Positions 6,180 to 53,281 of a stretch of 64,000 bases of DNA are shown in pieces. Under the pieces are notes generated by a model. That model saw only the letters and a list, made by a program, of their open reading frames with translations. It searched no databases and was not told where the DNA came from. The position numbers were made by a program, and so were the translations under genes. Source of the DNA: Lineus longissimus (taxonomy: Eukaryota > Nemertea > Pilidiophora > Heteronemertea > Lineidae); assembly GCF_910592395.1 (NCBI RefSeq), contig NC_088312.1, forward strand, positions 12,030,001 to 12,094,000. The letters are read 5' to 3'. Every line of letters starts with the position of its first letter. Within the stretch, counting starts at the first letter, position 1.

Positions 6180-6896
6180 AAGTCCATCATAATGTTCTCC
6201 TCGACTACATTCACGAACTCTGGTCCATCCACGGCAGTCTCCTCTTCTTCCTCCAAGATAGCATGTGGTCCAGCTTTGATTGGCCTTGATCGAAACGATG
6301 CTTCAAATCAGTTGACGATAACGTCCTCATCAACACCATCCCAGGCATCTCTGATGATGTTGGTCACGTCTCTCAGGCCGATGTGAGGGCAGTCTCCTCG
6401 TTCGTCCGTATGGTCCTTCTTCCACGATTTCCATTGTCGCCGTACGTGACATTTGAAGGACTTCATGACTGCAACGTCTAACGTTGTACCAGGGATGTGC
6501 AACCAGCAGGTACGTAATCCAGGCTGCCTCTCATGTCGCGGACTCTCGTCCGGAAGTTCTTTGTCCGTCGGACCTGATAATGATCGACGATTAACAGGAA
6601 CTGGTCGGTCTCGTTGTCGGTGACGTAGGGTTATAGGACTTCATCTAACCAGTGGTGCGCCGTTTCCTCCCTCATCCAACCAGTTTCCGATTGGGTAATC
6701 TTTACATCTGATGGTGGGTTGTCTTGGTGGGCTGCAAACACCCGGACGAAACCTCTTCTGGGGAAGGTGATGTGCGCCGGCAACTTTGCTCCAGAGGCTG
6801 CGATGCAGAGGGCGACGGTGTATCCCAGCTTGGTATTGGACCTGGATGATCGGACGTCTATGGCCTTCTCCCCCGTGGTGTTGGCCGTGTACATGG

Positions 6897-7050
6897 TGTA
6901 TTGTACGCGCCGGTCACCGATCCAAAGGTTGACCGCGCTCAACGTTGCTTAACTTCCACTCTGGGGCCAACGCGCCAACCACTGGGCCATAAAGGAATTC
7001 CCTCATGGCCGGCGGGTTAAGCCGTGCCATATGCCTGGGGGTACTATACA
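6897..7050 (-). repeat. 3' LTR of the TRIM element
   Basis: Same 154 bp sequence as 7167-7320 with two substitutions; the 5S-like part lies at 6911-6955. Adjacent on the internal side (7051-7064) is the polypurine tract, read on the minus strand. Confidence 0.88.
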
Positions 7051-7166
7051 TCATTCCCCTTTCGGACAGAGATGGATCGTCCTCGATCCTACTTAGCACT
7101 TCATGCGTCTCAGTACCGAACTACAAATCCAGAGCTCGCATCGCGTGGGAAGGTCTCAGTGCCAGA

Positions 7167-7320
7167 TGTATTGTACGCGCCGGTCACCGATCCAAAGGTT
7201 GACCGCGCTCAACGTTGCTTAACTTCCACTCTGGGGCCAACGCGCCAACCACTGGGCCATAAAGGAATTCCCTCATGGCCGGCGGGTGAAGCCGTGCCAT
7301 ATACCTGGGGGTACTATACA
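7167..7320 (-). repeat. 5' LTR of the TRIM element, with Pol III-like internal region
   Basis: On the minus strand this LTR contains ATGGCCCAGTGGTTGGCGCG (about 7241-7260), a tRNA-like A-box stretch. It then has AAGTTAAGCAACGTTGAGCG and TTTGGATCGGTGACCGG (7180-7226), which match the internal control region (A box, intermediate element, C box) of 5S rRNA genes in order and spacing. These are the TFIIIA/TFIIIC-type promoter elements, so the LTR may be transcribed by RNA polymerase III. That function is inferred from sequence only. Confidence 0.8.
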
Positions 7321-7623
7321 CATGGTTCTCATATCAAACAGGACAAAGGTTTGGTCCATGTTAAAGAAGAACCGCATCTGTATATAAAGACGATCAATGC
7401 TCCCAGTAACCGCATCTCGGAAGGTCTGGATCCTTGCAGCAGCATCAGCGGGGACGGTCGTTGTATTCTTGGTCACCTTCCGTAGGGACACGTGGCGTCT
7501 CTTCATCAAGCACTCCACCCAGCCTATGGATGCGTTGAAATCCCATAACTGAGGGCGACAATGCTGAATCCCTTCTCTGACATCTTGGGCTAACTCATTC
7601 CACCAGCTTTGCCACACTACCAA

Positions 7624-10197
7624 GCGTTGGGTTAGTCCAGATCGTGAACAGTCCTACCCACAAAAAGGGTCACATTCTGGACCCGGTAGCTGTCCCAAAG
7701 ACTGCTGCACCTTTATTGGAGTCGCAGATGGTCGGTCATGGATACGCAGTCACGCCTCAATCAGCATTCAACTTACAAGTGTCAAACATGTGTCTCTCCG
7801 ATCACTACCTTGTTTCATTTGAATTGCCCGATAAATGTCAAAAGGACAAAGCACGTAAACCTTCAAAAGTTGTCACCAGGGACATCAAACGCGTTGATAG
7901 GGATGAGTTCTCGCATGATGTTGTTAGTTCCTTTCAAAAGCATGTTCCCATGCGCGCGAGCGATGTGGCAGAAAGCCTGAACGAGGCTCTCAGCTCTGCA
8001 TTGGATAAACATGCACCGAAACGGATGAGCAAACCGAGAGTACGCAAACCAGACCCTTGGATGACCAAGGAAATCCTGGCAGCCCGTGCGTTACGTAGAC
8101 GTCTGGAATCTCGCTGGAGAACGACGAAACTAACGGTTCACAAGGAAATGTTTATGGACCAAGTGAAGGCCACAAGCGCCTCCATTAAGAATGCAAAACA
8201 AGATTTCTATGCGACTAAACTTTCCGACAAACGGGGCTCCCAGCGTGAGCTCTTTAGTGCTTTCGTGAACTTGACTCGTTCCTCTTCTGGACCTCAGAAC
8301 CAGGCCGCTACTGGCACTGTCGATATTGACTGTGCGAATAAATTTGCGAACTATTTTGATAAGAAGATCATGACAATACGGCAACATCTTGATAAGTGTG
8401 AAGAAACATATAAACCTTCTTCAAGAATACCACGGACATCCAACATGGTTTTGTCCGACTTCCAACCTACTACGACAGCAGAATTGGAAAAGATTATAAG
8501 GTCCACCCCAGTTAAAACATCTACACTGGCCCCCATTCCTTCCACACTTTTGAAGGATGTATTGCCGAATATAATACCATCCTTGGTCCAGCTTATCAAC
8601 TACTCTTTGTCAACCGGGGAATTTCCTGACAATATAAAACTTGCAATCATAACTCCTATTTTGAAAAAGAAGGGAGCGGATGAGTCCGAGCTTAAGAACT
8701 ATCGACCCGTCTCCAATTTGTCGTACTTTTCAAAGCTCCTCGAACGTGTGGTAGCAGCCAGGCTCCACAGCCATCTGGCGGCAAGCAATATGTACAACCC
8801 AAATCAATCTGCTTACCGCCCAGGCCATAGTGTGGAGACTGCGCTGCTATCCATTACCAACAGCGTTCTTGAGAGCTTCGACAGAAGAGACGGTGTCGCA
8901 ATGGTTCTCTTGGACTTATCCGCTGCCTTCGACACAATCGATCACAAGATCATGATATCACGTCTACAAACTGTTTTTGGTATCCAGGGCAGTGCGCTCT
9001 CATGGTTTGAATCATACCTGTCTGATCGTCAATTTAGGGTCAAGGTCGGCTCTAGTTTGTCCGACACCTACAAGTTGCAGTCTGGTGTACCCCAAGGAAG
9101 TGTTCTGGGGCCATTACTTTTTTCATGCTACACCTACCCATTGGATGAGATCATTGCCAATCACGATATTAGCGGCCATTTTTACGCTGAGGACACACAG
9201 AGCTGGCACGCGTTCAGCTTTTATGACTCTACCTCACTAGCCCAAGTGATCACTAAAATTGAACACTGTCTAAGCGATGTGCGCCTTTGGATGATGGAGA
9301 ATAAGCTCAAACTAAACGACTTAAAAACAGAGTTTTTACTGCTTCGTTCTCCTTATCAAAATGACAAGTTACTGTTCAGTGATGTCTGTCTTAAAATCGG
9401 TGATGCAGAAATTCGTTCAAGCGAGTCGGCGCGCAATCTCGGGGTGCTTTTTGACAATAACCTTACTTTTCACAAACAAATATCACAGGTTGTTTCGTCC
9501 GGGTTCTTTTACCTGCGCAAGATTGCGTCAGTCAAGAAATATCTACCTGAAGACCTTTTAGGTAATCTTGTACATGCTTTTATTACATCTAGACTCGATT
9601 TTGGTAACTCATTGTACTATGGTCTCCCTCTCTGTGAAATTAACCGCCTCCAGAAACTTCAAAACCAAGCAGCCAGACTCTTGACGGGTACTAGAAAATA
9701 TGATCACATCACGCCTGTTTTATATGACCTTCATTGGCTCCCCGTTCAACAACGTATTAAGTTCAAAATTTTAACCTTCGCTTTCAAAGCCGTGCAGGGC
9801 ACCGGCCCCAACTATCTTCAGCTTCCACTCCAGCGTCTTAGGCAGGGAACCAGAGCTCACTCGGCTCCTGCCCTGGAGTGGAAACGTTCCAAAAAAGTCA
9901 CTGCTGGTGATAGAGCTTTTGGGGTCTGTGCTCCGCGGCTTTGGAATGCATTGCCCACACATCTTAGGCAGATTGTATGTTTTAAAAGTTTTAAACAATG
10001 CATCAAGACATATTTGTTTAAGGAAGCCTTTTATCACTGATTGTTTTAACTATGTTTTAAACTGTCCTGTAATTGTTTTAATCATGTTTTAAATGTCTTT
10101 CCTATTATTACTGTATGAATGTACTTTTGTAAAGCGCTACTGGCAATTAATTTTTAAGTGGCGCTATAAAAATAATAAATTATTATTATTATTATTA
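7624..10197 (+). mobile_element. 5'-truncated LINE (L2/CR1-like, Jockey superfamily)
   Basis: The element starts inside the endonuclease domain and ends with an (ATT)n tail after AAGCGCTACTGGCAA and GGCGCTATAAAAATAAT, a 3' end typical of this LINE group. TACCAA flanks it on both sides (7618-7623 and 10198-10203), a short target-site duplication. Removing it rejoins the two halves of the minus-strand pogo transposase (NIQDKALV on one side, VWQSWWNEL on the other). It is therefore a secondary insertion, produced by target-primed reverse transcription with 5' truncation. Confidence 0.88.
7644..10040 (+). CDS. LINE ORF2 remnant: endonuclease end plus reverse transcriptase
   Basis: An uninterrupted 798-residue frame. 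Residues ~1-60 hold the end of the apurinic-type endonuclease (PTHKKGHILDPV, then SDHYLVSFELP). Reverse transcriptase motifs follow in order: NYRPVSNLSYFSKLLERV, NQSAYRPGHSVETALL, MVLLDLSAAFDTIDH (~420), LQSGVPQGSVLGPLLF, then the catalytic box at ~513. That box reads FYAEDTQ where the family has YADDTQ, so one of the paired aspartates is Glu. The C-terminal part (LHWLPVQQRIKFKILTF; LWNALPTHLR) is typical of L2/CR1-like LINEs. The family copies its own RNA into DNA at a nicked target. The open frame suggests a young copy, but 5' truncation and the altered active site make it unlikely to be autonomous. Confidence 0.88.
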   Translation: MNSPTHKKGHILDPVAVPKTAAPLLESQMVGHGYAVTPQSAFNLQVSNMCLSDHYLVSFELPDKCQKDKARKPSKVVTRDIKRVDRDEFSHDVVSSFQKHVPMRASDVAESLNEALSSALDKHAPKRMSKPRVRKPDPWMTKEILAARALRRRLESRWRTTKLTVHKEMFMDQVKATSASIKNAKQDFYATKLSDKRGSQRELFSAFVNLTRSSSGPQNQAATGTVDIDCANKFANYFDKKIMTIRQHLDKCEETYKPSSRIPRTSNMVLSDFQPTTTAELEKIIRSTPVKTSTLAPIPSTLLKDVLPNIIPSLVQLINYSLSTGEFPDNIKLAIITPILKKKGADESELKNYRPVSNLSYFSKLLERVVAARLHSHLAASNMYNPNQSAYRPGHSVETALLSITNSVLESFDRRDGVAMVLLDLSAAFDTIDHKIMISRLQTVFGIQGSALSWFESYLSDRQFRVKVGSSLSDTYKLQSGVPQGSVLGPLLFSCYTYPLDEIIANHDISGHFYAEDTQSWHAFSFYDSTSLAQVITKIEHCLSDVRLWMMENKLKLNDLKTEFLLLRSPYQNDKLLFSDVCLKIGDAEIRSSESARNLGVLFDNNLTFHKQISQVVSSGFFYLRKIASVKKYLPEDLLGNLVHAFITSRLDFGNSLYYGLPLCEINRLQKLQNQAARLLTGTRKYDHITPVLYDLHWLPVQQRIKFKILTFAFKAVQGTGPNYLQLPLQRLRQGTRAHSAPALEWKRSKKVTAGDRAFGVCAPRLWNALPTHLRQIVCFKSFKQCIKTYLFKEAFYH

Positions 10198-18487: not shown

Positions 18488-21400
18488 GATGTAAGAGACG
18501 TCATCATGCCTCATGTCACAATCAAGTAAGAGACCGCATTGTAGCCTGATTGATATGAGAGAAGCGGGTGATGTAAGAGATGTCATCATGCCTCATGTCA
18601 CAATCAAGTAAGAGACCGCATTGTCGCCTGAATGATATGAGAGAAGCGGGTGATGTAAGAGACGTCATCATGCCTCATGTCACAATCAAGTAAGAGACCG
18701 CATTGTCGCCTGAATGATATGAGAGAAGCGGGTGATGTAAGAGATGTCATCATGCCTCATGTCACAATCAAGTAAGAGACCGCATTGTCGCCTGAATGAT
18801 ATGAGAGAAGCGGGTGATGTAAGAGACGTCATCATGCCTCATGTCACAATCAAGTAAGAGACCGCATTGTCGCCTGAATGATATGAGAGAAGCGGGTGAT
18901 GTAAGAGACGTCATCATGCCTCATGTCACAATCAAGTAAGAGACCGCATTGTAGCCCGATTGATATGAGAGAAGCGGGTGATGTAAGAGACGTCATCATG
19001 CATCATGTCACAATCAAGTAAGAGACGGTATTACAGCCTGATTGATATGAGAGAAGTTGGTGATGTAAGAGACGGCATCATGTCTCATGTCACAAACAAG
19101 TGAAGAGACGGTATTGTAGCCTGATTGATATGAGAGAAGTGGGTGATGTAAGAGACGTCGTCATGCCTCATGTCAGAATCAAGTAAGAGACCGCATTGTA
19201 GCCTGATTGATATGAGAGAAGTGGGTGATGCAAGAGACGTCATCATGCCTCATGTCACAATCAAGTAAGAGACCGCATTGTAGCCCGATTGATATGAGAG
19301 AAGCGGTGATGTAAGAGACGTCATCATGCCTCATGTCAGAATCAAGTAAGAGACCGCATTGTAGCCTGATTGATATGAGAGAAAAGGGTGATGCAAGAGA
19401 CGGCATCATGCCTCATGTCACAATCAAGTAAGAGACCGCATTGTAGCCTGATTGATATGAGAGAAGCGGGTGATGCAAGAGACAGCATCATGTCTCGTGT
19501 CACAAACAAGTAAGAGACGGTATTGTAGCCTGATTGATATGAGAGAAGTGGGTGATGTAAGAGACGTCATCGTGCCTCATGTCACAAACAAGTAAAAGAC
19601 GGTATTGTAGTCTGATTGATATGAGAGAAGTGGGTGACGTAAGAGACGGCATCATGCCTCATGTCACAAACAAGTGAAGAGACGGTATTGTAGCCTGATT
19701 GATATGAGAGAAGTGGGTGATGTAAGAGACAGCATCATGCATCATGTCACAATCAAGTAAGAGACGGTATTGTAGCCTGATTGATATGAGAGAAGTGGGT
19801 GATGTAAGAGACAGCATCATGCCTCATGTCACAAACAAGTAAGAGACGGTATTGTAGCCTGATTGATATGAGAGAAGTGGGTGATGTAAGGACGGCATCA
19901 TGCCTCATGTCACAATCAAGTAAAAGACGGTATTGTAGCCTGATTGATATGAGAGAAGTTGGTGATGTAAGAGACGGCATCATGCCTCGTGTCACAAATA
20001 AGTAAAAGACGGTATTGTAGCCTGATTGATATGAGAGAAGTGGGTGATGTAAGGACGGCATCATGCTTATGTCACAAACAAGTAAAAGACGGTATTGTAG
20101 TCTGATTGATATGAGAGAAGTGGGTGATGTAAGAGATGGCATCATGTGTCGTGTCACAGACAAATAAGAGACGGTATTGTAGCCTGATTGATATGAGAGA
20201 AGTGGGTGATGTAAGGACGGCATCATGCCTTGTGTCACAAACAAGTAAAAGACGGTATTGTAGCCTGATTGATATGAGAGAAGTGGGTGATGTAAGAGAC
20301 ACCATCATGCCTCATGTCACAAACAAGTAAGAGACCGCATTGTAGCCTGATTGATATGAGAGAAGAGGCTGATGTAAGGACGGCATCATGCCTTATGTCG
20401 CAAACAAGTAAGAGACCGCATTGTAGTCTGATTGATATGAGAGAAGAGGGTGATGTAAGAGACTGCATCATGCCTAATGTCACAAACAAGTAAGAGACCG
20501 CATTGTAGCCTGATTGATATGAGAGAAGAGGGTGATGTAAGGACGGCATCATGCCTTATGTCACAAACAAGTAAGAGACCGCATTGTAGCCTGAATGATA
20601 TGAGACCGCATTGTAGCCTGAATGATATGAGAGAAGTGGGTGATGTAAGAGACGGCATCATGCCTCGTGTCACAAAAGAGTAAGAGACGGTATTGTAGCC
20701 TGATTGATATGAGAGAAGTGGGTGATGTAAGAGACGTCATCATGCCTCGTGTCACAAACAAGTAAGAGACCGCATTGTCGCCTGAATGATATGAGAGAAG
20801 TGGGTGATGTAAGAGACGTCATCATGCCTCGTGTCACAAACAAGTAAGAGACCGCATTGTCGCCTGAATGATATGAGAGAAGTGGGTGATGTAAGAGACG
20901 GCATCATGCCTCGTGTCACAAACAAGTAAGAGACGGTATTGTCGCCTGAATGATATGAGAGAAGTGGGTGATGTAAGAGACGGCATCATGCCTCGTGTCA
21001 CAACCAAGTAAGAGACGGTATTGTCGCGTGAATGATATGAGAGAAGTTGGTGATGTAAGAGACGGCATCATGCCTCGTGTCACAAACAAGTAAAAGACGG
21101 TATTGTAGCCTGATTGATATGAGAGAAGTTGGTGATGCAAGAGACGGCATCATGTCTCGTGTTACAAACAAGTAAGAGACGGTATTGTAGCCTGATTGAT
21201 ATGAGAGAAGTGGATGATGTAAGAGATGGCATCATGCCTCGTGTCACAAATAAGTAAAAGACGGTATTGTTGCCTGATTGATATGAGAGAAGTGGGTGAT
21301 GTAAGGACGGCATCATGCCTCATGTCACAAACAAGTAAAAGACGGTATTGTAGCCTGATTGATATGAGAGAAGTTGGTGATGTAAGAGACGGCATCATGC

Positions 21401-24400
21401 CTCGTGTCACAAATAAGTAAAAGACGGTATTGTAGCCTGATTGATATGAGAGAAGTGGGTGATGTAAGGACGGCATCATGCTTATGTCACAAACAAGTAA
21501 AATACGGTATTGTAGTCTGATTGATATGAGAGAAGTGGGTGATGTAAGAGATGGCATCATGTGTCGTGTCACAGACAAATAAGAGACGGTATTGTAGCCT
21601 GATTGATATGAGAGAAGTGGGTGATGTAAGGACGGCATCATGCCTTGTGTCACAAACAAGTAAAAGACGGTATTGTAGCCTGATTGATATGAGAGAAGTG
21701 GGTGATGTAAGAGACGGCATCATGCCTCGTGTCACAAATAAGTAAAAGACGGTATTGTAGCCTGATTGATATGAGAGAAGTGGGTGATGTAAGGACGGCA
21801 TCATGCTTATGTCACAAACAAGTAAAAGACGGTATTGTAGTCTGATTGATATGAGAGAAGTGGGTGATGTAAGAGATGGCATCATGTGTCGTGTCACAGA
21901 CAAATAAGAGACGGTATTGTAGCCTGATTGATATGAGAGAAGTGGGTGATGTAAGGACGGCATCATGCCTTGTGTCACAAACAAGTAAAAGACGGTATTG
22001 TAGCCTGATTGATATGAGAGAAGTGGGTGATGTAAGAGACACCATCATGCCTCATGTCACAAACAAGTAAGAGACCGCATTGTAGCCTGATTGATATGAG
22101 AGAAGAGGCTGATGTAAGGACGGCATCATGCCTTATGTCACAAACAAGTAAGAGACCGCATTGTAGTCTGATTGATATGAGAGAAGAGGGTGATGTAAGA
22201 GACTGCATCATGCCTAATGTCACAAACAAGTAAGAGACCGCATTGTAGCCTGATTGATATGAGAGAAGAGGGTGATGTAAGGACGGCATCATGCCTTATG
22301 TCACAAACAAGTAAGAGACCGCATTGTAGCCTGAATGATATGAGAGAAGTGGGTGATGTAAGAGACGGCATCATGCCTCGTGTCACAAACAAGTAAGAGA
22401 CGGTATTGTAGCCTGATTGATATGAGAGAAGTGGGTGATGTAAGAGACGTCATCATGCCTCGTGTCACAAACAAGTAAGAGACCGCATTGTCGCCTGAAT
22501 GATATGAGAGAAGTGGGTGATGTAAGAGACGTCATCATGCCTCGTGTCACAAACAAGTAAGAGACCGCATTGTCGCCTGAATGATATGAGAGAAGTGGGT
22601 GATGTAAGAGACGGCATCATGCCTCGTGTCACAAACAAGTAAGAGACGGTATTGTCGCCTGAATGATATGAGAGAAGTGGGTGATGTAAGAGACGGCATC
22701 ATGTCTCGTGTCACAGACAAGTAAGAGACCGCATTGTTGCCTGAATGATATGAGAGAAGTGGGTGATGTAAGAGACGTCATCATGCCTCGTGTCACAAAC
22801 AAGAAAGAGACCACATTGTCGCCTGAATGATATGAGAGAAGTGGGTGATGTAAGAGACGGCATCATGCCTCGTGTCACAAACAAGCAAGAGACGGTATTG
22901 TCGCCTGATTGATATGAGAGAAGTGGGTGATGTAACAGACGTCATCATGCCTCATGTCACAATCAAGTAAGAGACGGTATTGTAGCCTGATTGATATGAG
23001 AAAAGTGGGTGATGTAAGAGACAGCATCATGCCTCATGTCACAAACAAGTAAGAGACGGTATTGTAGCCTGATTGATATGAGAGAAGTGGGTGATGTAAG
23101 AGACAGCATCATGCCTCATGTCACAAACAAGTAAGAGACCGCATTGTCGCCTGAATGATATGAGAGAAGTTGGTGATGTAAGAGACGGCATCATGTCTCG
23201 TGTCACAGACAAGTAAGAGACGGTATTGTAGCCTGATTGATATGAGAGAAGTGGGTGATGTAAGAGACAGTATCATGCCTCATGTCACAAACAAGTAAGA
23301 GACGGTATTGTAGCCTGATTGATATGAGAGAAGTGGGTGATGTAAGGACGGCATCATGCCTTATGTCACAAATAAGTAAAAGACGGTATTGTAGTCTGAT
23401 TGATATGAGAGAAGAGGGTGATGTAAGAGACTGCATTATGCCTAATGTCACAAACAAGTAAGAGATCGCATTGTAGCCTGATTGATATGAGAGAAGAGGG
23501 TGATGTAAGGACGGCATCATGCCTTATGTCACAAACAAGTAAAAGACGGTATTGTAGTCTGATTGATATGAGAGAAGAGGGTGATGTAAGAGACTGCATC
23601 ATGCCTAATGTCACAAACAAGTAAGAGATCGCATTGTAGCCTGATTAATATGAGAGAAGTGGGTGATGTAAGGACGGCATCATGCCTTGTGTCACAAACA
23701 AGTAAAAGACGGTATTGTAGCCTGATTGATATGAGAGAAGTGGGTGATGTTAAAGACAGCATCATGCCTCATGTCACAAACAAGTAAGAGACGGTATTGT
23801 AGTCTGATTGATATGAGAGAAGAGGGTGATGTAAGAGACTGCATCATGCCTAATGTCACAAACAAGTAAGAGATCGCATTGTAGCCTGATTGATATGAGA
23901 GAAGTGGGTGATGTAAGGACGGTATCATGCCTCATGTCACAAACAAGTAAAAGACGGTATTGTAGTCTGATTGATATGAGAGAAGAGGGTGATGTAAGAG
24001 ACTGCATCATGCCTAATGTCACAAACAAGTAATAGATCGCATTGTAGCCTGATTGATATGAGAGAAGAGGCTGATGTAAGGATGGCATCATGCCTTATGT
24101 CACAAACAAGTAAGAGACCGCATTGTAGTCTGATTGATATGAGAGAAGAGGGTGATGTAAGAGACTGCATCATGCCTAATGTCACAAACAAGTAAGAGAC
24201 CGCATTGTAGCCTGATTGTTATGAGAGAAGAGGGTGATGTAAGGACGGCATCATGCCTTATGTCACAAACAAGTAAGAGACCGCATTGTAGCCTGAATGA
24301 TATGAGAGAAGTGGGTGATGTAAGAGACGGCATCATGCCTCGTGTCACAAACAAGTAAGAGACGGTATTGTAGCCTGATTGATATGAGAGAAGTGGGTGA

Positions 24401-27232
24401 TGTAAGAGACGTCATCATGCCTCGTGTCACAAACAAGTAAGAGACCGCATTGTCGCCTGAATGATATGAGAGAAGTGGGTGATGTAAGAGACGTCATCAT
24501 GCCTCGTGTCACAAACAAGTAAGAGACCGCATTGTCGCCTGAATGATATGAGAGAAGTGGGTGATGTAAGAGACGGCATCATGCCTCGTGTCACAAACAA
24601 GTAAGAGACGGTATTGTCGCCTGAATGATATGAGAGAAGTGGGTGATGTAAGAGACGGCATCATGTCTCGTGTCACAGACAAGTAAGAGACCGCATTGTC
24701 GCCTGAATGATATGAGAGAAGTGGGTGATGTAAGAGACGTCATCATGCCTCGTGTCACAAACAAGAAAGAGACCACATTGTCGCCTGAATGATATGAGAG
24801 AAGTGGGTGATGTAAGAGACGGCATCATGCCTCGTGTCACAAACAAGCAAGAGACGGTATTGTCGCCTGATTGATATGAGAGAAGTGGGTGATGTAACAG
24901 ACGTCATCATGCCTCATGTCACAATCAAGTAAGAGACGGTATTGTAGCCTGATTGATATGAGAAAAGTGGGTGATGTAAGAGACAGCATCATGCCTCATG
25001 TCACAAACAAGTAAGAGACGGTATTGTAGCCTGATTGATATGAGAGAAGTGGGTGATGTAAGAGACAGCATCATGCCTCATGTCACAAACAAGTAAGAGA
25101 CCGCATTGTCGCCTGAATGATATGAGAGAAGTTGGTGATGTAAGAGACGGCATCATGTCTCGTGTCACAGACAAGTAAGAGACGGTATTGTAGCCTGATT
25201 GATATGAGAGAAGTGGGTGATGTAAGAGACAGTATCTTGCCTCATGTCACAAACAAGTAAGAGACGGTATTGTAGCCTGATTGATATGAGAGAAAAGGGT
25301 GATGTAAGAGACTGCATCATGCCTAATGTCACAAACAAGTAAGAGATCGCATTGTAGCCTGATTGATATGAGAGAAGTGGGTGATGTAAGGACGGCATCA
25401 TGCCTTATGTCACAAATAAGTAAAAGACGGTATTGTAGTCTGATTGATATGAGAGAAGAGGGTGATGTAAGAGACTGCATCATGCCTAATGTCACAAACA
25501 AGTAAGAGATCGCATTGTAGCCTGATTGATATGAGAGAAGTGGGTGATGTAAGGACGGTATCATGCCTTATGTCACAAACAAGTAAAAGACGGTATTGTA
25601 GTCTGATTGATATGAGAGAAGAGGGTGATGTAAGAGACTGCATCATGCCTAATGTCACAAACAAGTAATAGATCGCATTGTAGCCTGATTGATATGAGAG
25701 AAGTGGGTGATGTAAGGACGGTATCATGACTTGTGTCACAAACAAGTAAATGACGGTATTGTAGCCTGATTGATATGAGAGAAGTGGGTGATGTAAGAGA
25801 CAGCATCATGCCTCATGTCACAAACAAGTAAGAGACGGTATTGTAGCCTGATTGATATGAGAGAAGTGGGTGATGTAAGGACGGCATCATGCCTCATGTC
25901 ACAAACAAGTAAGAGACGGTATTGTAGCCTGATTGATATGAGAGAAGTGGGTGATGTAAGGACGGCATCATGACTTGTGTCACAAACAAGTAAATGACGG
26001 TATTGTAGCCTGATTGATATGAGAGAAGTGGGTGATGTAAGAGACAGCATCATGCCTCATGTCACAAACAAGTAAGAGACGGTATTGTAGCCTGATTGAT
26101 ATGAGAGAAGTGGGTGATGTAAGAGACAGCATCATGCCTCATGTCACAAACAAGTAAGAGACGGTATTGTAGCCTGATTGATATGAGAGAAGTGGGTGAT
26201 GTAAGGACGGCATCATGACTTGTGTCACAAACAAGTAAATGACGGTATTGTAGCCTGATTGATATGAGAGAAGTGGGTGATGTAAGAGACAGCATCATGC
26301 CTCATGTCACAAACAAGTAAGAGACGGTATTGTAGCCTGATTGATATGAGAGAAGTGGGTGATGTAAGGACGGCATCATGCCTTATGTCACAAACAAGTA
26401 AAAGACGGTATTGTAGTCTGATTGATATGAGAGAAGAGGGTGATGTAAGAGACTGCATCATGCCTAATGTCACAAACAAGTAAGAGATCGCATTGTAGCC
26501 TGATTGATATGAGAGAAGAGGGTGATGTAAGGACGGCATCATGCCTAATGTCACAAACAAGTAAGAGATCGCATTGTAGCCTGATTGATATGAGAGAAGT
26601 GGGTGATGTAAGGACGGCATCATGCCTTATGTCACAAACAAGTAAAAGACGGTATTGTAGTCTGATTGATATGAGAGAAGAGGGTGATGTAAGAGACTGC
26701 ATCATGCCTAATGTCACAAACAAGTAAGAGATCGCATTGTAGCCTGATTGATATGAGAGAAGTGGGTGATGTAAGAGACGGCATCATGCCTCATGTCACA
26801 AATAAGTAAAAGACGGTATTGTAGCCTGATTGATATGAGAGAAGTGGGTGATGCAAGAGACGGCATCATTTCTCGTGTTACAATCGAAGTAAAAGACGGT
26901 ATTGTAGCCTGATTGATATGAGAGAAGTGGGTGATGCAAGAGACGGCATCATGTCTCGTGTCACAAACAAGTAAGAGACCGCATTGTAGCCTGATTGATC
27001 ATGAGAGAAGTGGGTGATGTAAGAGACGGCATCATGCCTCATGTCACAAACAAGTAAAGAGACGGTATTGAAGCCTGATTGATATGAGAGAAGTGGGTGA
27101 TGTAAGAGACAGCATCATGCCTAATGTCACAATCAAGTAAGAGACCGCATTGTAGCCTGATTGATATGAGAGTAGAGGGTGATGTAAGAGACATCATCAT
27201 GCCTCATGTCACAATCTAGAGATTGCATTGTA
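18488..27232. repeat. satellite array, ~82 bp unit, about 107 copies
   Basis: Tandem units of 82 bp (81 in the GTAAGGACGG variant) read GTAAGAGACGTCATCATGCC, then TCATGTCACAATCAAGTAAG, AGACCGCATTGTAGCCTGAT and TGATATGAGAGAAG. Variants are shared in runs: GTCATC versus GGCATC, CCGCATT versus GGTATT, TCGCC versus TAGCC. Higher-order structure is present: 20051-20600 matches 21791-22340 (offset 1740), 22084-23255 matches 24046-25217 (offset 1962), and a 27 bp internal duplication occurs near 20596. Because three units make 246 bases, long but meaningless open frames appear on both strands. No gene is encoded. Confidence 0.97.
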
Positions 27233-33401: not shown

Positions 33402-33976
33402 TACGGCAGCAGATTAGTGCCATAAAAAATAAAATATTATCTCGTTATTACGAGATCATTTCTCGTTATTACGCGATCTTTTCTCGTTATTACGCGATCT
33501 TTTCTCGTTATTACGCGATCTTTTCTCGTTATTACGAGATGTTATCTCGTTATTACGCGATGTTTTTCGTTATTTTCACCATTGTTCAGTCCAAGATTGA
33601 AATAGAACCATACAAGAAGTTCCCTCATATTAGGCATGTTAGGACACGACGATGGTATATGGGTCTATAAAGTACGGACCTTTCCCGCGCTTGATTTTGA
33701 CCTTTAATCCTCGATGTTGCGTGCACTTTCGCATCTCGTAATAACGAGAAAAGATCTCGTAATAACGAGATAACATCTCGTAATAACGAGAAAAGATCGC
33801 GTAATAACGAGAAAAGATCTCGTAATAACGAGATAACATCGCGTAATAACGAGAAACGATCTCATAGTAACGAGAAAAGATCTCGTAATAACGAGAAAAG
33901 ATCTCGTAATAACGAGAAAAGATCTCGTAATAACGAGATAATATTTTATTTTTTATGGCACTAATCTGCTGCCGTA
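33402..33976. mobile_element. inverted-repeat element built from CTCGTTATTACG subrepeats
   Basis: The ends are inverted: TACGGCAGCAGATTAGTGCC on the left, GGCACTAATCTGCTGCCGTA on the right, then a shared AT-rich ATAAAAAATAAAATATTA. Inside each arm is a tandem of ~21 bp units containing CTCGTTATTACGCGATCTTT (left, 33432-33570) or the inverted form (right, 33733-33945). GAGAAG flanks both sides (33396-33401, 33977-33982). The ~160 bp core is unique and non-coding. The superfamily is unclear; a 6 bp duplication is unusual. Confidence 0.85.
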
Positions 33977-50893: not shown

Positions 50894-53281
50894 TCAAAGC
50901 TTTGCAATCATATCTTCGACTGCTTTTTTCATAGGTTCATAGGCATCAACATTACCGTCACATGGTATCTTGACCTCGTCAATGAACCAGCAGTTCTCAC
51001 CACGATTGGCATAGCAGACGATCACTGCTTTCATGTGCAGTTTTTCTTGTTGTAAAACTGTGTTGCAGAGGGGGGTGAATATGTCACTTATTTCAAAGAA
51101 ATTCAGTGACAGAGCATCGAAATTATCTTTCATGTTGGAGGCATTCCATGTGCTTAGCAAGAAATATAAGTGAGTTACATCTTTTGGGAGCTGTTTCAGT
51201 TTCACTTCAATACAGTGGCGACCAATATGATTTATACGATCCATGTCATCACCAGAATGCTTAACACTTCCACCACAAATTTTACCTTCTTCATTCTCAA
51301 AATCAACAACTTCGAACAACTCGGAGCCTTTGTACACAAAGCAAGAGGCATCAATGAATAAGTTCTTCGATGTTTTGGGATAATGCCAGTGGAGCTCAAA
51401 GACAGCATGGTCAATGTTGTCTGGGACACTGAGAAGTCTGATGATCAGATGTATTGTGCTGCCTCCTGGTACACTAAAATCTTCAAATGTTCTGTATCGT
51501 CCATGATCATACGCCTGCAATAGGAGAAATAGAAAGCATGCAATTGTATATTCATTTCCGATTCAACACAACAGTTAGCAGAAGTCGGAACAAAGTTTCC
51601 ATGCATCTGGTTACACATGCCCATTGATGCGAAACAAGATACCGAGCTGTAACCAAATTAAAAGTTATTCATGCACATGCGTAACTGAGTGCAAAATCTG
51701 GCAACTGCAGTGCTCATTCAGTCTTCAAATGAGTATTGCAATTTGCTTCTGATACAGGCAGAGTAACAATAGAACTGATTAAGGGGCTGAGTTTTTATGG
51801 TTTTCCTGTGGTGTAAAATCTTGATAAAGGGCTTAGAGGAGGGAGCAGATAAACTATTTTACATCCTACATCTATACATCATAAAAACTGATATTAGGAC
51901 AGTAAAACTATTAACTTTTGTATGCAACAACAGAGGGGAGGTGTGAGACTCTACAAGGTCTCTGTCTTCTTATGCCTCACTCCACCCAGGTGTATAAATG
52001 GGTACCGGTCAGCTGTTGATATTAGACTAACCCAAAACTCTAACTTTAAGTTTTATACCTCTAATTCCCTCTTGTTGTACTTGAGGCACTGCTTCCCTGT
52101 TGAATATTTCCAGTAGGCTTTGATTTTTTCTTTCAGTTCTTTGATGGTCATCTCAGGTTTGAATGAGAATGTCTTCTCTTCACCGTCCAGGCGTCTAACA
52201 TGAATGAAATGCTCGCCAGTAGCAACAGGTCTGGCTCTCTCATAGGGCTTGAACAAACGCTTTAGGTGGGCTTCATAAAGCTTTATCTTCTCCTCAGAAT
52301 CGTGGACAACTGCACAGCATTTTGGGCACTTTTGTGTCCTCTTCAACTCTTTAATGACACACTGCAAGAAGAAAGGGGTGATTCATGACATTTTAAGTGC
52401 TGTTTCATCAATAACGTGACTTTTCCTGTAATATGAAAGTACATGTATAGCCAAAGTCTGTCCTGTCCACTGCACCCAACCATACTTCATGCAATAGACT
52501 ATTAAAACAAGCTTGTCAACTAAAGTTTTGAAGCATCAAACATGTCAAACAAAGAGTGCCAACTTTAGCCTTGATGTCCGCTTTGTTTTGGGCTGTGGAC
52601 CTCGAACTACTGGTCAGATTTCTTTGAAGTTTTGTTTTTATTGATCTAGGTTTTGAAACCAAATAGTATTTATTGATTTTGGTAACCATGGCGACAACAA
52701 AAAAACGTTTTGTGTATATATGTGTTTCATTGAATTTGGAATTTTCTTCTCTGTACAGTTTATCACTCGACCATCCGGGTGAAATCTTCAGGTTATCAAT
52801 TATTCATTTCCATCTACTCATGTGCCAATTATAAATGTAGGAAAAAACCTCGAAACAAATTATGGCCTAAACAGTTTACCCCCAAACTGATCAGTGTGTT
52901 TCCCTGGATATTTTTTAAAAAATTTCTTCATTGACAATCCTCTATCCTGAAAAATCTTGTTTGGTTTTGAAGCTCAGATCAATAAAAACGAAATAGACTA
53001 AATGGACTATAGTGTCAACAAGATTGTCAATAGACAACTCGATATTTGATTGGTTCAAGATCCTGACAGTCCTCTGTGGTCTTAGCATTACAAAGATGCT
53101 GACTCTTATATTTTGGTTGTACCATGTATTGCGACAACTTCAGCTATGATAATAGTACCTATTATCATCATGGATACCATACCTCAAAGCAATGATGGTA
53201 AGGGTGCTTGCAGTTTTTTGTAAGTTTTTCCCTTGGATATTCATTCAGGAGCTTTTCTTCGCCACACTCTTTGCACTGCAT
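50894..53281 (-). CDS. RING-like finger, ubiquitin-like and TerD-like domain protein (3 exons)
   Basis: Coding exons: 53281-53183 (33 codons), 52361-52059 (101 codons) and 51514-50894 (206 codons plus TGA), all phase 0 with GT-AG introns, giving 340 residues. Residues 3-48 form a compact RING-like finger: C3-C6, C24-H26, C31-C34, C45-C48 (HPYHHCFE, KCPKC). Residues ~84-164 form a ubiquitin-like fold split by intron 2 (FIHVRRLDGEEKTFSFKPE; TIHLIIRLL). Residues ~168-330 resemble TerD: NLFIDASCFVY, VKHSGDD and VKLKQLPKDVTHLYFLLST. TerD domains come from bacterial tellurite-resistance and stress operons and can bind calcium. RING fingers recruit E2 enzymes, so an E3 ligase is inferred. A TTTACAG acceptor at 53317 before the ATG implies an upstream non-coding exon. 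No defect was seen. Confidence 0.8.

Follow-up and report, generated by a model that had tools for sequence, protein, structure and literature searches.

Several described retrotransposons, TRIMs among them, carry a promoter region of the kind found in small RNA genes. The closest to the locus reported here is Ajax, a name given by Kojima in 2024 to TRIMs whose LTRs hold the 5S rRNA box A, IE and box C (PMC10886601). According to the available part of that paper, Ajax occurs in the nemerteans Notospermus geniculatus, where it measures 434 bp, and Lineus longissimus, where it measures 421 bp, is flanked by 5-bp duplications, and is represented in L. longissimus by 1114 LTRs and 151 cores; its origin was proposed to lie in the capture of a SINE3 element (PMC10886601). 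SINE3 elements share the 5S-type promoter, but they lack LTRs and are copied by a non-LTR retrotransposon, as the same source describes them (PMC10886601). Cassandra, from plants, is likewise a TRIM with a 5S-type Pol III promoter in its LTRs and, in the consulted description, boxes A and C 18 nt apart. Helenus, described from animals, fungi and plants, is a TRIM whose promoter region also derives from a small RNA. Among the matches listed in the open literature, no relevant paper on Ajax or TRIMp3 later than Kojima 2024 was found.

Here we describe an element at positions 6897–7320 of a 64,000-nucleotide stretch of L. longissimus DNA (the window). It is almost certainly one of the copies of Ajax-1_LiLo, the Ajax element of L. 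longissimus and a miniature, non-autonomous LTR retrotransposon, the match having been made by species, length and design rather than by consensus letters. The Ajax element is therefore already known and not new, having been published in 2024 from the same species. The original prediction, made from the sequence, had referred to reports of animal TRIMs with small-RNA-derived promoters; the report in question is Kojima 2024 (PMC10886601), whose available text describes the family in L. longissimus.

Architecture and orientation of the element

The locus is a 424 bp LTR element composed of two 154-bp TG..CA direct repeats and a 116-bp core. The two LTRs, 6897–7050 and 7167–7320, differ by two mismatches, at 7018 (T/G) and 7033 (G/A), and the element is bordered by the target-site duplication CATGG at 6892–6896 and 7321–7325. 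Repeats, core and duplication were all found where the original prediction had placed them; the strand had been absent from it. The 5S-type boxes are in sense on the minus strand, which makes the repeat at 7167–7320 the 5' LTR; from right to left, the element consists of 5' LTR (7320–7167), core (7166–7051) and 3' LTR (7050–6897). Its length is below 1000 bp and it codes for no protein of mobilisation, as is characteristic of Ajax. No additional Ajax copies were found elsewhere in the 64-kb window. The features of the locus are as follows.

6311–7653, minus strand: insertion target, a transposase remnant of DDE_1 type that continues to either side of the element (flank domain search)
6892–6896, no strand: target-site duplication CATGG (flank comparison)
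6897–7320, minus strand: Ajax TRIM copy, Ajax-1_LiLo type, 424 bp (repeat structure, genome copies)
6897–7050, minus strand: 3' LTR, 154 bp, two mismatches against the 5' LTR (direct repeat)
6912–6955, minus strand: 5S-type internal control region of the 3' LTR (motif and alignment)
7051–7166, minus strand: non-coding core, 116 bp, between the LTRs
7051–7063, minus strand: polypurine tract GAAAGGGGAATGA, adjoining the 3' LTR (sequence)
7152–7166, minus strand: primer-binding-site region TCTGGCA(CTGA)GACC, with four extra nucleotides (comparison with 16 other cores)
7167–7320, minus strand: 5' LTR, 154 bp, sense TGTATAGTAC...GTACAATACA (direct repeat)
7182–7225, minus strand: 5S-type internal control region of the 5' LTR, box A to box C (LTR positions 96–139 in sense)
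7321–7325, no strand: target-site duplication CATGG (flank comparison)

Copies in the Lineus longissimus genome

The LTR was used as a query against the L. longissimus genome (391,118,348 bases in 30 contigs), which gave 42 matches, with 40 scored out of 507 first-look candidates; the resulting counts are lower bounds. Thirty loci were read, and one (L028) was dropped because it occupies the same place as L014, leaving 29 loci including the window copy (L006). Perfect 5-bp duplications were observed at 25 of the 29 loci, compared with perfect 5-bp agreement in 2 of 812 mismatched flank pairings used as a control. ATTGT, found at L017 and L018, is the sole duplication occurring twice among the loci, and the common flanks of these two loci indicate that they are probably a single insertion that was itself duplicated.

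Four loci are without a perfect duplication. L007 consists of one LTR adjoining the core, the other LTR not having been found there, L010 has a duplication that matches at 4 of 5 positions, and L032 is a three-LTR locus in which the last LTR is broken. In the case of L021 (G000:C15:13256173), GCAAT is present on both sides, and an extra TGA separates the duplication from the 5' LTR; this TGA is the end of the purine-tract segment, as expected from second-strand priming at that point.

Solo LTRs were identified at 13 of the 29 loci, all 13 with perfect duplications. The two-LTR loci, also 13, measure 421 bp (five copies), 420 bp (two), 424 bp (two, one of them the window copy), 422, 416, 403 and 292 bp. 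Of the 16 other cores read, 15 have a length of 112–115 bp, and the remaining one, in the truncated L025, measures 89 bp. A tandem arrangement was observed at L014 (G000:C10:5973506-5973924), where three LTRs and two cores lie within a single GCGCC duplication. The LTRs of one element differ from each other at 1–5 sites in 15 pairs, five of which also show gaps. This low divergence indicates fairly recent activity, in line with what had been proposed from the window copy. The genome search suggested in the original prediction thus recovered other copies, solo LTRs and 5-bp duplications, and these agree with its reading of the locus as an animal TRIM whose LTRs hold an internal promoter region of 5S type.

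Additionally, a systematic 200-kb sample of contigs C1–C3 (20 stretches, 4 Mb apart) contained no Ajax match at E<=1e-4, with about 0.6 expected from the 1114 LTRs given in the available part of the published description. The same sample contained one TGGCAGACC, which no LTR end precedes. Exact 5S and LTR patterns gave no match in viral contigs. A 17-nt LTR pattern matched four bacterial stretches (L001–L004) among the wider genome contigs, and these were taken as chance matches.

Insertion target and other features of the window

Judged by the domain content of its flanks, the Ajax copy sits in a minus-strand transposase remnant. The segment 6634–6894 (minus strand) matches DDE_1 with an E-value of 6.8e-5, above the curated cut-off, and the segment 6311–6640 (minus strand), in a different frame, matches DDE_1 with an E-value of 0.0042, below the curated cut-off. 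No Pfam family was detected when 7321–7653 was searched alone on the minus strand, and no domain was detected on the plus strand of the flanks in three frames each. When the flanks were joined with one duplication omitted, 197 codons with no stop were obtained, so the frame is open on either side of the insertion point.

Other features were observed further along the window. An open frame of 819 aa with a reverse transcriptase domain lies at 7581–10040 on the plus strand. Its reverse transcriptase has 2328 relatives at E<=0.001, and among the matches listed (the best 120 of 2328) the top two are P0003, 58% identical and carrying endonuclease domains, and P0004, 61% identical and with the reverse transcriptase only; based on these best relatives, the frame is probably a non-LTR retrotransposon. 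A long tandem array of an 82-bp unit (about 106 copies) extends over 18488–27214, with a 163-bp period across 20602–27214, and inverted repeats composed of 21-nt units, with 94% complementarity over 165 nt, are located at 33402–33976. The region 50897–51562 (minus strand) encodes a TerD-domain protein (E 7.5e-11), a family best known from the bacterial stress response and present here in an animal genome. Of 88 candidate relatives, two proteins lie at E<=0.001; one of these is 87% identical and is located on a 997-base contig.

Primer site and purine tract

The primer-site region of the window copy reads TCTGGCACTGAGACC. Among 16 other cores (with L028 dropped and L007 not included), the primer site is TCTGGCAGACC in 14 and TCTGGCGACC in two, and the four extra nucleotides of the window copy are present in none. 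The TGG-type primer site of the original prediction consequently holds for the family, but in the window copy it is split by these nucleotides. The sequence ACTGAGAC occurs again deeper in the core of the window copy, making local copying a possible source of the insertion. The predicted polypurine tract was confirmed directly beside the 3' LTR.

The primer site of Ajax is given as tRNA-Leu in the consulted part of its description (PMC10886601). That of Cassandra, according to the portion of its description available, is TGGTATCAGAGC, unlike the TCTGGCAGACC type of the window family. No tRNA gene was detected in the 200-kb sample of contigs C1–C3, and no match to the primer site was detected within the 64-kb window.

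The 5S-type region of the LTR

On the minus strand, AAGTTAAGCAACGTTGAGCG was located at 6955–6936 and TTTGGATCGGTGACC at 6926–6912, and the other LTR carries both again at a distance of 270 bp. The motif was scored by the published Cassandra definition, in which box A and box C are separated by 18 nt (PMC7215508, as far as the accessible text gives it). By this definition the LTR matches 21 of 25 positions of the Cassandra-type boxes with a spacing of exactly 18 nt. When the LTR was dinucleotide-shuffled 3000 times, one shuffle reached this score. On both strands of the 64-kb window, the top two box A/box C sites are those of the two LTRs, the next site scoring 20. Alignment of the LTR to a hand-entered human 5S rRNA sequence gave 47 ungapped nucleotides with a score of 19, which none of 2000 shuffles equalled; against the Rfam RF00001 consensus the score was 14, equalled by 19 of 2000 shuffles.

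The 40 nt upstream of box A match this human 5S sequence at 14 of 40 positions, and on this sequence comparison the 5S likeness is confined to the promoter region of about 44 nt. The Rfam 5S covariance model gave no match, even at E<=10, in 6400–7800 or in four of the 30 family loci, which is expected if about 44 of the 120 nt of 5S are present. The original prediction had named a fall to background in a covariance or profile search as evidence against itself: the covariance search did return nothing, but the box motif and the alignments stand above background.

Conservation was compared across 44 LTRs, which showed 0.0088 changes per site in the 5S region versus about 0.0092 (computed by hand) in the rest of the LTR, with site 18 excluded, at which 42 of the 44 LTRs differ from the query. 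Since these LTRs were selected by similarity and are near-identical, the test is weak, and so slight a difference speaks neither for nor against a functional promoter. Separately, a solo LTR at L005 (G000:C5:18720117-18720270) was found to be identical to the 3' LTR of the window copy, including its variant at position 18.

Transcription, termination and mobilisation

In the mechanism that we consider, the 5S-type boxes of the 5' LTR would probably recruit TFIIIA/TFIIIC and Pol III. Box A of 5S genes begins at about +49, which by analogy would place the start of transcription close to LTR position 48. The RNA would span the core and continue into the 3' LTR. Reverse transcription would be primed by a tRNA beside the 5' LTR, and second-strand synthesis by the purine tract. 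A putative autonomous LTR retrotransposon would supply the proteins for copying and for insertion with the 5-bp duplications that are observed. Recombination between LTRs could then yield the solo LTRs and the tandem, both of which were found among the loci.

The end of the RNA is less straightforward, since TTTT is absent from 28 of the 29 loci, the window element included, which would leave Pol III without a canonical terminator. As 2234 of 5000 shuffles also lack TTTT, the absence is a mechanistic question and not a statistical anomaly. The 5S sequence of Cassandra, in contrast, has terminators according to the part of its description consulted. In the case of the window copy, the nearest downstream TTTT lies 875 nt away. 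We tentatively suggest, as a possibility more doubtful than the promoter step itself, that Ajax combines a 5S-type promoter with no Pol III terminator of its own, and that its RNA may run on to an end in the flanking DNA or stop at a non-canonical site such as TTTAT. This motif is present at LTR positions 58–62, about 10 nt past the predicted start, and an RNA ending there would have a terminal repeat about as short as the 18 nt given for Cassandra in the available text.

The same observations can be read in another way, which competes with the promoter step and not with the identity of the family. The family may be a real TRIM transcribed by Pol II, with 5S-type boxes that are a relic of the captured SINE3 and no longer drive transcription. 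A relic of this kind would fit the missing TTTT and the conservation pattern of the 44 LTRs, in which the 5S region does not clearly stand out; it accounts less readily for the fact that boxes A and C still lie exactly 18 nt apart and match at 21 of 25 positions, and we regard it as rather unlikely. Recruitment of Pol III by the 5S-type boxes is preferred for the promoter step.

A far less likely proposal is the tRNA-5S hybrid head of the original prediction. It was based on the A-box-like TGGCCCAGTGG at LTR position 62, upstream of the 5S box A, which fits an 11-nt A-box pattern at 9 of 9 positions, as 1 of 1000 shuffles does; however, this pattern was picked post hoc, once the sequence was known. 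With the usual 12-nt A-box pattern the LTR reaches 7 of 8, as do 267 of 1000 shuffles. The search for a B box in the LTR gave nothing above background, the best value of 6/10 being the most frequent among shuffles, and ARAGORN found no tRNA gene in the window. The hybrid head was consequently not retained. This also separates the family from Helenus, which has tRNA-type A and B boxes and, in animals, duplications of 4 bp rather than the 5 bp observed here, as far as the consulted part of the source describes it (PMC10886601).

Identity with Ajax

As far as the published description was available, the family resembles Ajax-1_LiLo in several respects: the host is the same nemertean, L. longissimus; the published 421 bp is the commonest length here (5 of 13 two-LTR loci); the LTR contains the 5S promoter region only, rather than a whole 5S, with boxes A and C scored here; 5-bp duplications flank the copies (25 of 29 loci); and LTRs greatly exceed cores. 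The window copy differs from the published element in its length of 424 bp and in its four extra primer-site nucleotides. A separate, unpublished 5S-type TRIM family of L. longissimus, related to but distinct from Ajax-1_LiLo, is extremely improbable, given that the 3-bp length difference which might suggest it consists of four more nucleotides in the primer site and one fewer in the purine tract, and that the LTRs of the five 421-bp copies are 96.8–99.4% identical to the window 3' LTR. Three observations on the Ajax copy go beyond the consulted part of the Ajax description, namely the 4-nt primer-site insertion, the location in a DDE_1 remnant and the absence of TTTT.

Significance

The polymerase used, the end of the RNA and the autonomous mover are questions that concern this class of element. 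If the tentative account of termination is true, Ajax would be an LTR element that multiplies via read-through or oddly terminated Pol III transcripts. The L. longissimus loci give independent support to the published description of an animal TRIM in which the promoter region is of 5S type, and the 29 loci add evidence for integrase-type insertion.
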